Made by a program: the position numbers and the translations under genes
Source: a virus
DNA: 64,000 nt
Reading direction: 5' to 3' (one strand)
Virus record (IMG/VR): IMGVR_UViG_3300017706_001340
Location: 23,770 to 87,769 of that record
In this document: positions 4,120-53,586 of the stretch, piece after piece
How positions within the stretch are numbered: the stretch's first letter is position 1
Layout: every line of letters starts with the position of its first letter
The notes under the pieces: model-generated
What the model saw: the letters and a program-made list of their open reading frames with translations, nothing else
What the model was told of the DNA's origin: nothing
Database searches by the model: none

Positions 4120-4707
4120 TTATTTATATACCATACCCTTAATCTTCACACTATTAGTATAATGTTGATCAAGATATTTTAGTTTGTATTTTGACGTGAA
4201 TTTTTTAAATTTCTCCATGTTACATGGATGTATTCTTGTTTGTTTGATATCACATATCATCTCCGTATACTTGCCCTTGTTGTTATTATAATATTGTATG
4301 AATGTGTTGAATTTGACCGGAGCTACGAAAACACGTAGAGGTAGTATATTTTTTATTTGCTTCAGATAACGACTCATGAATTGTATGAACTCTGGTCTTG
4401 TGTCTCTCGTGGTACCCTTCCTTGTGCGTTGATTCTCACACTTCTTGAAGTCACACTTGATGTCCTTGTCGCTAAAATATGTCACAATCCTGTTGTCTGT
4501 GTTGATGGTAGACACTGTATCACATAATGTTTTAGTGATGTGATAGTAATATATCACCTTTGTGTCTTGAGACCTTATATTATAATCATTAAACTTGTCA
4601 TATGTATACAAATCTTGTACGATTTGCTTGTATGCATCATGAAACACATACTCAAAGTTTAGTAGATATAAATTATGATTGTTGAGCTCAACATGCCTTA
4701 GTTGCAT
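4120..4707 (-). CDS. Hypothetical protein, 195 aa
   Basis: 195 residues, rich in Tyr, Asn, Lys and Asp, with no signal peptide or membrane segment. Cys residues occur in KCDFKKCENQ near the middle, but no clear zinc site. It follows the RecB-type nuclease gene by 16 bases on the same strand, with no late octamer of its own, so the two are probably co-transcribed. No family recognised. Confidence 0.65.
   Translation of the reverse strand: MQLRHVELNNHNLYLLNFEYVFHDAYKQIVQDLYTYDKFNDYNIRSQDTKVIYYYHITKTLCDTVSTINTDNRIVTYFSDKDIKCDFKKCENQRTRKGTTRDTRPEFIQFMSRYLKQIKNILPLRVFVAPVKFNTFIQYYNNNKGKYTEMICDIKQTRIHPCNMEKFKKFTSKYKLKYLDQHYTNSVKIKGMVYK
4121..4128 (-). promoter_or_regulatory. T4-type late promoter (TATAAATA)
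   Basis: Exact T4 consensus TATAAATA on the minus strand, 5 bases before the ATG at 4115. It overlaps the stop codon of the upstream leftward gene 4120-4707. Confidence 0.7.
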
Positions 4708-23006: not shown

Positions 23007-23891
23007 ATGAGTACATTCACAAAATCCATGTTCGCGAGTATCAAAGATGCTCTAACAAAAGAAGGTAGTAGTAATAAGACTGCAGATATAATGAGAACCA
23101 AACCAGGTAATTCATATGAGGTAAGATTATTACCTAACGTTGAAGATCCAAGTAAGACCTTTTATCATTACTTTAGTCATGGTTGGACTAGTTTCAGTAC
23201 TGGTCAGTATGTCTCAGCATTGAGTCCTATGACTTGGGGTGATAGAGATCCAATTTCTGAATACAGGCTCAAAGTTTATAGAGGTGGTTCTCCGGAAGAA
23301 AAGGCTAAGTCGGATTCAATCTTCCGGAGAGAGAATTGGCTAGTTAATGCGTATGTTGTGAATGATCCTGATGATCCTGAGAACAATGATACAGTGAAAA
23401 TTTTGCGCTTTGGTAAACAATTACATAAGATCATCATGGAGGGTATTACTGGTGAGGATTCAGATCAGTTCGGTGAGAAAATTTTTGATCTATCTAGCAG
23501 TGGTTGTACATTCAGAGTGAGGTGTGAGAAGCAGGGTGATTATCCTACATATGTATCAAGTAAATTCTTGATGCCTGCGGAAATACCTGGCATGACTGAC
23601 TCGAGAATTAAAGATGTGTATGATAGCTGCCACACGCTTGATGATACGTTCAGATCAAAAACATATGAAGAGTTGAAGCAGATGTTAGATGAACATTTTC
23701 ATTGTAAGGATCCTAGTGCAGTGGAAGATTCTCCAACAGTCACAGTCCCGTCGAGTGTCAGAGAGGATACTGATACAGAGGAAGAGGTTCCTATGGATTT
23801 TGGTGATAAATCGTCAAAATCATCTAATGATGATGACCCACTTGAAGACGATAAGGTCAAGGAGTTGTTAGCTGGTTTAGATGATGTCTAA
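23007..23891 (+). CDS. gp32: gp32 single-stranded DNA-binding protein
   Basis: 294 residues (T4 gp32 is 301). A short basic N-terminus is followed by an OB-fold core with many aromatic residues (FYHYFSHGWTSF) and an acidic C-terminal tail (SSNDDDPLEDDKVKELLAGL), the protein-interaction arm of gp32. The Cys/His zinc ligands of T4 gp32 are not present in the expected spacing. An A/T-rich region with TATAAT at 22986-22991 lies upstream but lacks a good -35. Context with gp45 and gp41 supports the call. Confidence 0.85.
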   Translation: MSTFTKSMFASIKDALTKEGSSNKTADIMRTKPGNSYEVRLLPNVEDPSKTFYHYFSHGWTSFSTGQYVSALSPMTWGDRDPISEYRLKVYRGGSPEEKAKSDSIFRRENWLVNAYVVNDPDDPENNDTVKILRFGKQLHKIIMEGITGEDSDQFGEKIFDLSSSGCTFRVRCEKQGDYPTYVSSKFLMPAEIPGMTDSRIKDVYDSCHTLDDTFRSKTYEELKQMLDEHFHCKDPSAVEDSPTVTVPSSVREDTDTEEEVPMDFGDKSSKSSNDDDPLEDDKVKELLAGLDDV

Positions 23892-25180: not shown

Positions 25181-25510
25181 ATGAAGAATAAAATTTACAC
25201 ATTATCATACTTTAAGAAAAGACTTAAGGACTCAGGATACATTGTATGGGATATTATGAATAAGTATGCCATGGAGGATCCAAGGAAGTGGACTGTGCTT
25301 GTCAATCCTAGCATTGAGTCAGTATACATAACATGTATAGTCAATAGAAATGAGCTAGGTCAACTTCCGGAATTTGAGATAAACGACGGTGGTATGCGGT
25401 TTCAGAAAAATTTGACTTTAATGACTAGTAGTATGGAGGTTATTATAAACTTACTGTCGAGAAAAGGTATTGTGGCGGATGATTCTTTATTGTATAAGAA
25501 AGATAAATAA
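25181..25510 (+). CDS. Hypothetical protein, 109 aa
   Basis: 109 residues, basic, with YFKKRLKDSGYIVW at the N-terminus and a C-terminal helix. No family recognised. It sits where T4 has clamp-loader and regulatory genes near gp45, but it is too small to be gp62 and shows no similarity I can point to. Confidence 0.65.
   Translation: MKNKIYTLSYFKKRLKDSGYIVWDIMNKYAMEDPRKWTVLVNPSIESVYITCIVNRNELGQLPEFEINDGGMRFQKNLTLMTSSMEVIINLLSRKGIVADDSLLYKKDK
25502..25509 (+). promoter_or_regulatory. Possible late promoter (GATAAATA)
   Basis: GATAAATA overlapping the stop of the upstream gene, 7 bases before ATG 25517. Confidence 0.45.
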
Positions 25511-42611: not shown

Positions 42612-45600
42612 ATGGAAGAAAACATAACAGAGCTCGTAACCACATTAACATCACTCGTAGAGAAGTTAGACGACAAGTCAACGAAGCAGGGAGTTAGTGA
42701 TGCACGTAACTCATATAATCCTGATGATGCGTTTGACAGTGAAGAGAAGCATTTAAAAGATCAACAAAAACAACAAGCGAAGTTAAATGCCGAGGAATCT
42801 GAAAAACTCGACAAAAAGAGGAAGAATCCAAGAAAAATTTTACAGACCGTGATGCCTATCAAGGTGATGGAGTTTGATAAGAGAGCAATCAAGCAATTGC
42901 AGTCAATCATGATCTCACCTGTACAGATAGAGGAAGAGCAAGATAAGAAGCCCAATAAATCCAGCTGGTGGCCGGCATTATTGGCGGGTGTAGTGGTTGT
43001 GTGGGACAAGCTCAAAGATGCTTGGCTTGTAATACGTACAACAGTTGGTGATTGGGCAACTGCCATGAGTAAATGGTGGAAAAAATTCAAGAAAACTATG
43101 AACATCAGATGGTCACGCTTAAAAGGATGGTTTAATAAGTTTAAGGTGGGTGATTTGATACCACAATCGATCAAAAAATGGTGGATACAATTCCGCAAGG
43201 GTGTGTCCACGAAGTGGTTGGGAGTTAAGAGCTGGTTTAATAAATTTAAAGTCAGTAGTCTAATTCCGGAATCGGTCAAAAAGTGGTGGAAGAACATGAA
43301 CAAATCGATGGTGAAGAGATGGTCCGGTATCAAGACATGGTTCACAAATTTCAGTCCCAAGAAATTGATACCTCAATCGATACGTGGTTGGTGGAGCAAG
43401 CTGAACTTCAGCAAGAAGTGGACCGGTATCAAGACATGGTTCACAAATTTCAGTCCCAAAAAATTGATACCAAGTGGAATACGCAATTGGTGGAAAGGTT
43501 TCGATATGGGTAAAAAATGGCTCAGCTTTAAAACATTTTTTGTTGATCTCCCAGGGAAAGTTAAAGCATTGATACCACAGTCTATAAGGACAGCATTGAG
43601 CACTGTAGTTAAGACGATGAAAGCAGCTTTGCTCCCAATTACAGCATTCTTCACCGGTCTAAGTGGACTGTTTGGTGGTGGTAAGGGAGCAAATAGTACG
43701 AGCATATTCACTAAAATCGCGAAGTTTTTCGGTCCCACTAATCCTGTAATCAAAGGTATCTTCACATTCTTAAAAACTGCCGGATCGGTACTAGGTAAGC
43801 TGTTTTTACCAATAACTATAATAATGGAAGCTTTTAACTTTGTGACTGGCTTCATGGAGGGTTTCAAGAAGGATGGTATAATAGGAGGAATAAGAGAAGG
43901 TGTAAAGTCGGTATTCAACAGTCTGGTCGCATTTCCATTAGATCTACTCAAGAGTGGTGTTTCATGGATAGCAGGTAAATTAGGATTTAAGGAAGTTGAG
44001 AAAACGTTAGATGAATTCTCATTCAAAGAGTTGTTCACTGACTTGTTCGACAAGTTGTTTGGTGTGATTGATATGTCTATTGGCTTTATAAAGAATCTAA
44101 TAAACGATGGAGCTGAGAGAGTGAAAGATATGTTTAGGTCTGAAGAAGAGATCAAAGCCAGAAAGGCTGCCGGTGCTCGAGCCAAAAATAAAGAAGCAGC
44201 CATGAAAGAAACTTTCCAGCGATCTGTAAGTTCAGATGGCATGAACAAGATATTAGCAGCCAAAAAGACGAGTGATGAGAATGAGGCTGAGATAATAGAG
44301 TCACAAACAGCTCGATGGAGAGATGCTATGGCTTCCGCAGCTAGACAGACCAAAGATGAGAAAGAATTCCGGGAATTGGTTATAAAACAACTTGAAAATG
44401 ACAAGAAGGGTAGTTCCAGGACGTTTCTCGCCATGCAACAAAAAGCGGTGGGTAGTGATTGGGAGAAAAATGCTCTTAAGAACTTTAAGAAGGTCCGAGG
44501 TCAGAATGTTGTTGATACGAATGCCATGGGTGATTTGGCACAAACATTGGCAAATCAGCGTGCACAAACACGCAGATTCAATGATACTGTCAAGGTGGTT
44601 ACTGATGATTGGAAAAAATCTGGTAGTTTAAAACTCGGTGACATGAAGATTGATCTCACGGCTCTTAAGAATGATAAGAGTAAAATTGATCCTAAGATTG
44701 TTGAACATTACGAGTCCCTGATCCGCATGCGGGATGAAACGAATAACAATGAGCTCAAGATACAGTATGGCGCGATGATCAAGAGTCTTGACAATGTAGG
44801 TGTGAAAGAGGCTGTGGATCACATCAAAGCACAACAAGCAGAGACGGAAAAATTTAAAGCGGATCTAGAGGATTACGATCGCGCAATTAAACAGGGAGGT
44901 CCCCAACGTATATTGCAGACTCCAGAGAAACTCGACCTGATTTCAACTAATTACGAGATGCCCCAAGAAGAGAGGTTGAAGGAATGGAAATTAACAGCTG
45001 GTCCTCAACCGACAAAACCTACCAGATCATTAGAAGAAACCAAAGCGTATCTCAACGCCATATCAAGTGTGAATGTTGATCAATTAAAGGTGAATGAACA
45101 AGTCAAGGCCGCCGAAGCAGCCGCTATCAAGCAGACTAAACTTGTATCACCAGTTGTACCACAACCATCAAAGCAGACATCAATAGATCCCGGGAGATTA
45201 TCTGAATTAGAGCTCACGTTGGAACAACCGTTACCAGAACTAAATACAAAGCAAGCATCTGATCATATCAAACAATCCGGCGACAAGATAAATCAAGGAG
45301 CACAGTCCTTGCATTTCGAAACATTAGAAGGATGGCCCAGACCTCAAAGTCCATACGCGTGGGATTATGTCAAGATGGCCGGTGAGTCTATAACAAGAGG
45401 TAGTAAACAATTACACGAACAGGCGATCCAATATGAAAAGGCAGCAAGTAACACCAACAAATCCGCACAGAAAAACAATCAGAATATCGAGAAGAAGATG
45501 AGTGAGATGGTTAATATAATGACGGAGACTGTTGGTATACAGAAGAAGACACTCAACGCACTAGAACAACATGGATTGATCGACAAACAAGGTAATACAA

Positions 45601-45704
45601 CTGTAAACAGTGGCGGAAACAACACTACAGTTAACAACGTCACGGTCGATTCAGACATAATGAAATTTAGAGACAAGGTTGTAGGGAGACTATACAACAA
45701 GTGA
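42612..45704 (+). CDS. Tail tape measure-like protein
   Basis: 1030 residues. A charged coiled-coil N-terminus is followed by tandem Trp-rich repeats of about 33-36 residues (near residues 165-310; core W-x-GIKTWFTNF...LIP-x-SI-x-x-WW), hydrophobic segments near 330-470, long Lys/Glu/Ala-rich helices, and an Asn/Thr/Val-rich C-terminal section. Large size, helical character, and placement among hub genes fit a tape measure (T4 gp29 position), although that protein is only 590 residues. The C-terminus ends in FRDKVVGRLYNK. Confidence 0.75.
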   Translation: MEENITELVTTLTSLVEKLDDKSTKQGVSDARNSYNPDDAFDSEEKHLKDQQKQQAKLNAEESEKLDKKRKNPRKILQTVMPIKVMEFDKRAIKQLQSIMISPVQIEEEQDKKPNKSSWWPALLAGVVVVWDKLKDAWLVIRTTVGDWATAMSKWWKKFKKTMNIRWSRLKGWFNKFKVGDLIPQSIKKWWIQFRKGVSTKWLGVKSWFNKFKVSSLIPESVKKWWKNMNKSMVKRWSGIKTWFTNFSPKKLIPQSIRGWWSKLNFSKKWTGIKTWFTNFSPKKLIPSGIRNWWKGFDMGKKWLSFKTFFVDLPGKVKALIPQSIRTALSTVVKTMKAALLPITAFFTGLSGLFGGGKGANSTSIFTKIAKFFGPTNPVIKGIFTFLKTAGSVLGKLFLPITIIMEAFNFVTGFMEGFKKDGIIGGIREGVKSVFNSLVAFPLDLLKSGVSWIAGKLGFKEVEKTLDEFSFKELFTDLFDKLFGVIDMSIGFIKNLINDGAERVKDMFRSEEEIKARKAAGARAKNKEAAMKETFQRSVSSDGMNKILAAKKTSDENEAEIIESQTARWRDAMASAARQTKDEKEFRELVIKQLENDKKGSSRTFLAMQQKAVGSDWEKNALKNFKKVRGQNVVDTNAMGDLAQTLANQRAQTRRFNDTVKVVTDDWKKSGSLKLGDMKIDLTALKNDKSKIDPKIVEHYESLIRMRDETNNNELKIQYGAMIKSLDNVGVKEAVDHIKAQQAETEKFKADLEDYDRAIKQGGPQRILQTPEKLDLISTNYEMPQEERLKEWKLTAGPQPTKPTRSLEETKAYLNAISSVNVDQLKVNEQVKAAEAAAIKQTKLVSPVVPQPSKQTSIDPGRLSELELTLEQPLPELNTKQASDHIKQSGDKINQGAQSLHFETLEGWPRPQSPYAWDYVKMAGESITRGSKQLHEQAIQYEKAASNTNKSAQKNNQNIEKKMSEMVNIMTETVGIQKKTLNALEQHGLIDKQGNTTVNSGGNNTTVNNVTVDSDIMKFRDKVVGRLYNK
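43107..43540 (+). repeat. Trp-rich tandem repeats in tape measure gene
   Basis: Four to five units of about 99-108 bases. The best pair, 43324-43372 and 43423-43471, is 49 bases with one mismatch at a 99-base period, encoding GIKTWFTNFSPKKLIP. Confidence 0.85.
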
Positions 45705-45710
45705 TAAATA
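45703..45710 (+). promoter_or_regulatory. T4-type late promoter (GATAAATA)
   Basis: GATAAATA overlapping the tape measure stop codon, 5 bases before ATG 45716. Confidence 0.6.
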
Positions 45711-45715
45711 TTGAC

Positions 45716-46150
45716 ATGCTTACTAACGATACAACAGTAACATTGATGAATGGTAATGACCGGGTATCAACAAAACTTCCAGAGATATTAGAGATGATAT
45801 GCACTGATGATGAGCTGATAATCGAATCATATGAATCAAAAATAACTACAGCGACGATCTCCAGTATACGTACATCAGATAGTAAGGATTTCCTGTACTT
45901 AAAAACGTGTTGTGATAATACGTTAATGTTGACACCAGATCATAAAATATATCTACCAGAAACCAAAGAATGGATTCGAGCTGAAAACATGAGTAAAGGG
46001 TTGTGCGTGTTGATGTCTGATGGATCTACATCAGAGATACTATCGACACACATAGTAGCAGATAATACAGCCAGTAGAGTGTATTCTCTTGCTATAACAC
46101 CAACACAATGTTATTTTGCAAACAACATACTAGTACATAACGAGAGTTAA
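45716..46150 (+). CDS. Freestanding Hint (intein-like) domain protein
   Basis: 144 residues consisting of little more than a Hint fold. Block A is MLTNDTTVTLMNG, with the initiator Met at the place of intein Cys1; block B is LTPDHKIYL with T-x-x-H; blocks F/G are VYSLAITPTQCYFANNILVHN, shown here in parts: VYSLAITP then YFANNILVHN, followed by only Glu-Ser and stop. Terminal His-Asn is retained, so C-terminal Asn cyclisation is conceivable, while Cys1 chemistry is lost. Start 45716 is preferred over GTG 45701 because of the late octamer 5 bases away. Function unknown. Confidence 0.85.
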   Translation: MLTNDTTVTLMNGNDRVSTKLPEILEMICTDDELIIESYESKITTATISSIRTSDSKDFLYLKTCCDNTLMLTPDHKIYLPETKEWIRAENMSKGLCVLMSDGSTSEILSTHIVADNTASRVYSLAITPTQCYFANNILVHNES

Positions 46151-51196: not shown

Positions 51197-51204
51197 TATT
51201 TATA
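51197..51204 (-). promoter_or_regulatory. T4-type late promoter (TATAAATA)
   Basis: Exact TATAAATA on the minus strand, 9 bases before ATG 51187. Confidence 0.7.
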
Positions 51205-53543: not shown

Positions 53544-53551
53544 TATTTATC
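53544..53551 (-). promoter_or_regulatory. T4-type late promoter (GATAAATA)
   Basis: GATAAATA on the minus strand, 6 bases before ATG 53537. Confidence 0.6.
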
Positions 53552-53578: not shown

Positions 53579-53586
53579 TATAAATA
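53579..53586 (+). promoter_or_regulatory. T4-type late promoter (TATAAATA)
   Basis: Exact TATAAATA, 7 bases before ATG 53594, driving the gp25-gp6 wedge operon. Confidence 0.75.

Follow-up and report, generated by a model that had tools for sequence, protein, structure and literature searches.

Some uncultured T4-like phages keep a stand-alone, splicing-dead intein fold as an ordinary conserved gene of the tail cluster. Inteins are usually regarded as parasites, either splicing or lost. The gene described here lies in a 64,000-nucleotide stretch of viral DNA (IMG/VR record IMGVR_UViG_3300017706_001340, positions 23,770 to 87,769; hereafter, the window) and appears to be a former selfish element that now serves the phage as a working protein. 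It encodes a real, conserved, splicing-dead and freestanding Hint domain; the fold family is already known, and this form of it is new. The splicing fold thus persists as an independent, selected gene while the splicing residues vanish, which raises the question of what a Hint fold does without chemistry. Fold and selection can be read directly from sequences and searches, while a role for the protein would be read from its synteny. Since the gene is small and syntenic, that role is amenable to testing in a cultured relative.

An earlier note on this DNA, made from its letters alone, had delimited the gene exactly: reading frame, coordinates, the start at Met1 and the end H141-N142-E143-S144-stop all stand (Table 1). 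The product reads MLTNDTTVTLM...LTPDHKIYLPETKEWIRAE...SRVYSLAITPTQCYFANNILVHNES-stop. The claim that the whole of this 144-residue protein is a Hint fold is borne out by Pfam, a profile search of the PDB, Foldseek and VIA-align, which agree. The window protein matches Pfam Intein_splicing at E 3e-7 and PT-HINT at E 3e-4 (21.4 bits, against a curated cut-off of 27.7 bits), in both cases below the curated cut-off, and the orthologues in L003 and L008 exceed the PT-HINT (PF07591) cut-off with 33.7 and 42.5 bits (4.9e-8 and 9.8e-11, respectively). A profile built from four orthologues has 30 matches in the PDB, including intein, BIL and other Hint chains. The shuffle z against intein splicing domains is 10-12; the match is not due to chance. 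The AlphaFold model of the window protein, made with five orthologues as input, is weak (pLDDT 59), and its top Foldseek matches are all inteins, BIL domains and hedgehog Hint domains. Structure prediction did not refute the fold, the models of the window protein and of its most divergent orthologue (L030) both matching Hint domains. By its fold and by the order of blocks A, B, F and G, the protein is a member of the Hint superfamily.

Table 1. Features of the Hint gene and its surroundings in the window, and members of a second freestanding family in Aeromonas phages.
Feature	Position	Strand	Basis
Tape-measure gene, upstream, 1030 aa	42612..45704	+	PHROG tape-measure matches of orthologues; conserved C-terminus
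GLIDKQGN segment near tape-measure C-terminus	45573..45596	+	weak, single contrast
Late-promoter-like octamer GATAAATA, 5 nt before ATG	45703..45710	+	NATAARTA at the same place in five lineages
Freestanding Hint-domain gene, 144 aa and stop	45716..46150	+	ORF; profile and structure searches
Initiator Met1, in the alignment column of intein Cys1 (start of block A)	45716..45718	+	alignment with phage NrdA-type inteins
Block B, T73-x-x-H76 kept	45932..45943	+	alignment; TGKQ in L030
Block F, VYSLAITPTQCYFANN; VYD Asp is Ser124, block-F His is Gln131	46079..46126	+	alignment
Block G, ILVH141N142, then E143 S144 and stop	46127..46147	+	HNES/HNDS ends in three lineages
Tail gene, downstream, 428 aa	46153..47439	+	tube-associated by gene order only
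CC2_244 family, phage CC2	98437-98952 (L108:5438-5953)	-	
CC2_244 family, phage 65 p014	L109:2501-3025		
CC2_244 family, Aswh_1	L110:1501-2019		

Can such a protein splice? Active-site columns were read from an alignment with minimal and endonuclease-interrupted phage inteins. Class 1 inteins begin with Cys or Ser, and here Met1 matches Cys1 of the phage NrdA-type inteins column for column, in the window as in L003, L008, L009 and L030. The TxxH and His-Asn of this class are present in the window and missing from L030. The residue after the terminal Asn is Glu in the window and Asp in L008, followed by Ser and the stop, and not the Cys, Ser or Thr of a +1 nucleophile. The gene is a separate open reading frame in four lineages, with differing frame offsets from the gene before it, and not an in-frame insertion between exteins. 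Blocks A, B, F and G had all been claimed: blocks B and G, and block A minus its Cys1, do look intact, but block F is degenerate. All copies with the His-Asn end lack Cys1, both block-F residues (Asp and His) and a +1 nucleophile.

Because the initiator Met1 leaves no N-extein and only two residues follow the Asn, splicing is excluded by the sequence, as the earlier note had expected. A class 2 intein (Ala1, with the +1 nucleophile attacking the N-extein junction) was rejected in the absence of an N-extein and of a +1 nucleophile, and a class 3 intein was rejected with Ser124 and Val140 occupying the signature positions. We take these positions to be a Cys at the VYD site of block F and a Thr before the His-Asn. 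Class 3 inteins are defined by this WCT motif (PMC7664689). Catalysis of any kind looks dispensable, although blocks B and G are intact in three lineages and chemistry could still be in use there.

The same gene occupies the identical slot in several IMG/VR contigs: L003/L004 (57% identity to the window protein), L008 and L009/L010 (40-43%), and L030 (20%). Both the start at position 1 and the HN-(E/D)-S end recur in two of these three further lineages. In carriers, the gene starts 11-19 nt past the tape-measure stop and, on its 3' side, abuts the following tail gene or overlaps it by 1 nt. The Hint frame is offset from that of the tape-measure gene by 2 in the window and L003 but by 1 in L008 and L030. 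Because the offset varies between lineages, fusion with the tape measure through a frameshift or read-through was rejected. Relatives in which the Hint segment is an intein within a continuous gene were looked for, as the finding that would speak against a freestanding module, and no relative has one. In a Hint tree, the orthologues form one side of a branch whose support is only 70/70. Ordinary phage inteins and other Hint-bearing proteins, of the NrdA type and from DNA polymerases (L011-L019, L035 and L020-L026), were set aside as orthologues and served for comparison only.

Searches beyond these contigs were negative: tblastn of the window protein and its neighbours found no match in 50,697 phage records, nor did a search of genome_contigs, and the records of the window and its relatives hold no other intein match. 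Scanning with the tail gene upstream gave 27 loci; in the records searched from this and other scans, no Hint copy besides that of L030 turned up. This result is uninformative on presence: of 12 scan records checked, a single one includes some of the downstream gene, and an intact junction from the tape-measure to the downstream gene is seen in none (0/12).

One relative, L029, lacks the gene, its tail gene starting 12 nt after the tape-measure gene. Thus, tail building in these phages does not require the Hint protein. A concatenated tree of four flanking genes groups L029 with the window and L003 (98/99), and the single-gene trees conflict; the grouping favours loss in L029 as the simpler story.

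The Hint gene is maintained as a protein under purifying selection. Between L008 and L009, 10 of 420 bases differ with a single amino-acid change, and a dN of 0.003 against a dS of 0.11 means that selection keeps the protein. For the window and L003, dN is 0.385 and dS 1.98, the latter near saturation; by comparison, dN is lower in the downstream tail genes (0.14-0.27) and twice as high in the tape measure (0.76).

The copy in L030 shows how far the erosion has gone. Its homology to the other copies is supported by hhalign (E 4.5e-9) and a shuffle z of 7-8, and it has lost both the block-B His (TGKQ) and the terminal His-Asn (its end is NNILTRT-stop). Its predicted Hint fold reaches pLDDT 95.5, with inteins among the rows of the input alignment, so that the prediction is less independent than the pLDDT suggests. 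The best matches of this model by Foldseek and VIA-align are all Hint domains (Z 19.4 to NrdJ-1). In the L030 lineage, the predicted fold outlives the chemistry, and the loss of even the residues for Asn cyclisation gives a natural series from a working intein to a dead, domesticated fold.

The earlier note had also given the gene a late octamer of its own. As a sequence motif this holds, with typical spacing and presence in all five lineages: GATAAATA is one base off TATAAATA, and NATAARTA is kept at this spot in five of five lineages, including L029, which lacks the gene. In L008 and L009, the motif lies wholly outside the tape-measure gene. Across the window, NATAARTA stands 0-9 nt before 13 ATGs, where 0.48 are expected, and a Shine-Dalgarno-like core precedes only 8 of the 68 genes. 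In T4, late transcripts begin about 6 nt downstream of the octamer. If the start site is as in T4, late mRNAs would be leaderless. A GTG start at 45701 would overlap both the tape-measure stop and the octamer and shares the Hint frame only in the window and L003, so the ATG is preferred. Other T4-like late octamers are found, for example, at 53579-53586, 51197-51204 (-), 4121-4128 (-), 53544-53551 (-) and 25502-25509.

The upstream gene is the tape measure, as proposed, a label backed by PHROG matches of its orthologues. The downstream gene, called a tube-cap gene in the earlier note, is a candidate for that function by gene order. Near the tape-measure C-terminus, Hint carriers have GLIDKQGN (GLVDKQGN in L030), against GKNEPAGS in L029; this one contrast would fit binding of the Hint protein at the tape-measure C-terminus. 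The tape-measure gene also contains tandem Trp-rich repeats (IPQSIRGWW...KTWFTNFSPKKL) at 43000-43700 of the window.

What, then, might the protein do? We favour, at a probability of roughly 0.5, a domesticated, splicing-incompetent, separate Hint protein that acts as a non-catalytic late partner of tape-measure or tail-tube proteins. An intein splicing domain, resembling most closely those of phage ribonucleotide reductases, would have settled between the tape-measure gene and the tail gene that follows it. With a start codon at domain position 1 and a stop two codons past the His-Asn, it has no exteins to join, and selection keeps the fold while the catalytic residues erode. The protein would be made late and work without chemistry, possibly as a small, beta-rich protein that binds the adjacent tape-measure or tail-tube proteins or helps to assemble them. 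Domestication, one of two origins suggested at the outset, is well supported, and a role in tail assembly is plausible from the gene's position and late-type motif. Within the same reading, the protein might instead be a late accessory protein; tail operons may also harbour late-expressed genes of this kind. It is rather unlikely that it is an accessory (moron) Hint protein, expressed late and acting on the host or other phages, that resides in the tail operon but takes no part in assembly. In favour of this, L029 lacks the gene, and other phages' freestanding degenerate Hint proteins do have non-tail neighbourhoods; against it, the same slot in four lineages is not a scattered distribution, and proteins of this kind are not known to have a phage-host function.

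An active C-terminal Hint domain is improbable. Here H141 and the block-B His would drive cyclisation of Asn142, freeing Glu-Ser or Asp-Ser and leaving a C-terminal succinimide; this could serve as a timing switch or supply an electrophile for a Lys of a tail protein. Three lineages keep TxxH and HN and share an invariant HN-(E/D)-S-stop terminus, and A-type BIL domains cleave C-terminally through Asn (PMC7765530). The window protein resembles these domains in its HN end without a +1 nucleophile; unlike these domains, which cleave and are embedded in larger, variable proteins, it is a whole protein, without Cys1. Against activity, block F has lost its Asp and His, and it is not obvious what removing two residues would serve. 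Moreover, L030 keeps the gene and, as modelled, the fold without the HN and the block-B His, and thus cyclisation, which had been thought conceivable and for which three lineages keep the residues, cannot be a function common to all lineages. A decaying remnant of an intein that once lay inside the tape measure or the following tail gene, the other origin suggested in the earlier note, is largely refuted and very improbable as the current state of a gene that several lineages keep syntenic, at full length and under purifying selection. Kinship to phage inteins and the lost catalytic residues would be expected of a remnant; purifying selection is strong, however, the reading frames are intact in four lineages, no relative has an in-frame intein allele or a continuous-gene version, and the gene boundaries coincide exactly with the Hint ends.

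Among known systems, the protein is like the class 1 phage NrdA/NrdJ-type mini-inteins (NrdJ-1, PDB 8ubs) in its Hint fold of about 140 residues, a DT motif in block A, TxxH in block B, ILVHN in block G and a near-identical block F/G stretch. Unlike these inteins, it lies outside any host protein and lacks exteins, with Met for Cys1; these Hint proteins also have Ser or Asn for the block-F Asp, an acid instead of Cys, Ser or Thr at +1, and a stop two codons past the Asn. The orthologues exceed the family cut-off of the pretoxin Hint domains (PT-HINT), but the window Hint carries no attached toxin or secretion domain.

A description of freestanding inteins was not found in the open-access literature searched. 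A structure search of viral proteins returned further Hint-fold proteins of similar length, among them members of two families from cultured phages that are annotated as hypothetical. The family of Lactobacillus phage P1 g075 (143 aa) has Gly for Cys1, an HD-stop end and a place in an accessory region; P1 g075 (L095:4322-4753) is 59% identical to its counterpart in Maenad (L111:1501-1929). The Aeromonas CC2_244 family (171 aa), whose members are predicted to be Hint proteins, lies between gp40 and gp41, with relatives at 60% and 32% identity. In the P1 family, and by predicted structure in the CC2_244 family, the Hint fold spans the entire protein and catalytic residues have been lost, as in the window; both families differ from the window protein in having little sequence similarity past the fold and different gene neighbourhoods. 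This suggests that the freestanding degenerate Hint is a recurrent, undescribed kind of phage protein. Tentatively, and at somewhat less than even odds, we extend this to the proposal that an intein splicing domain has become an independent protein that serves a contractile phage tail, without catalysis, as a structural component or in assembly, one case of such a recurrent kind. In Erwinia phage pEa_SNUABM_3 (L048:3882-5324), a collagen-like virion structural protein has a Hint domain near its C-terminus, with an ILVHN-like end (VLVHNTDIVAKAEKN).
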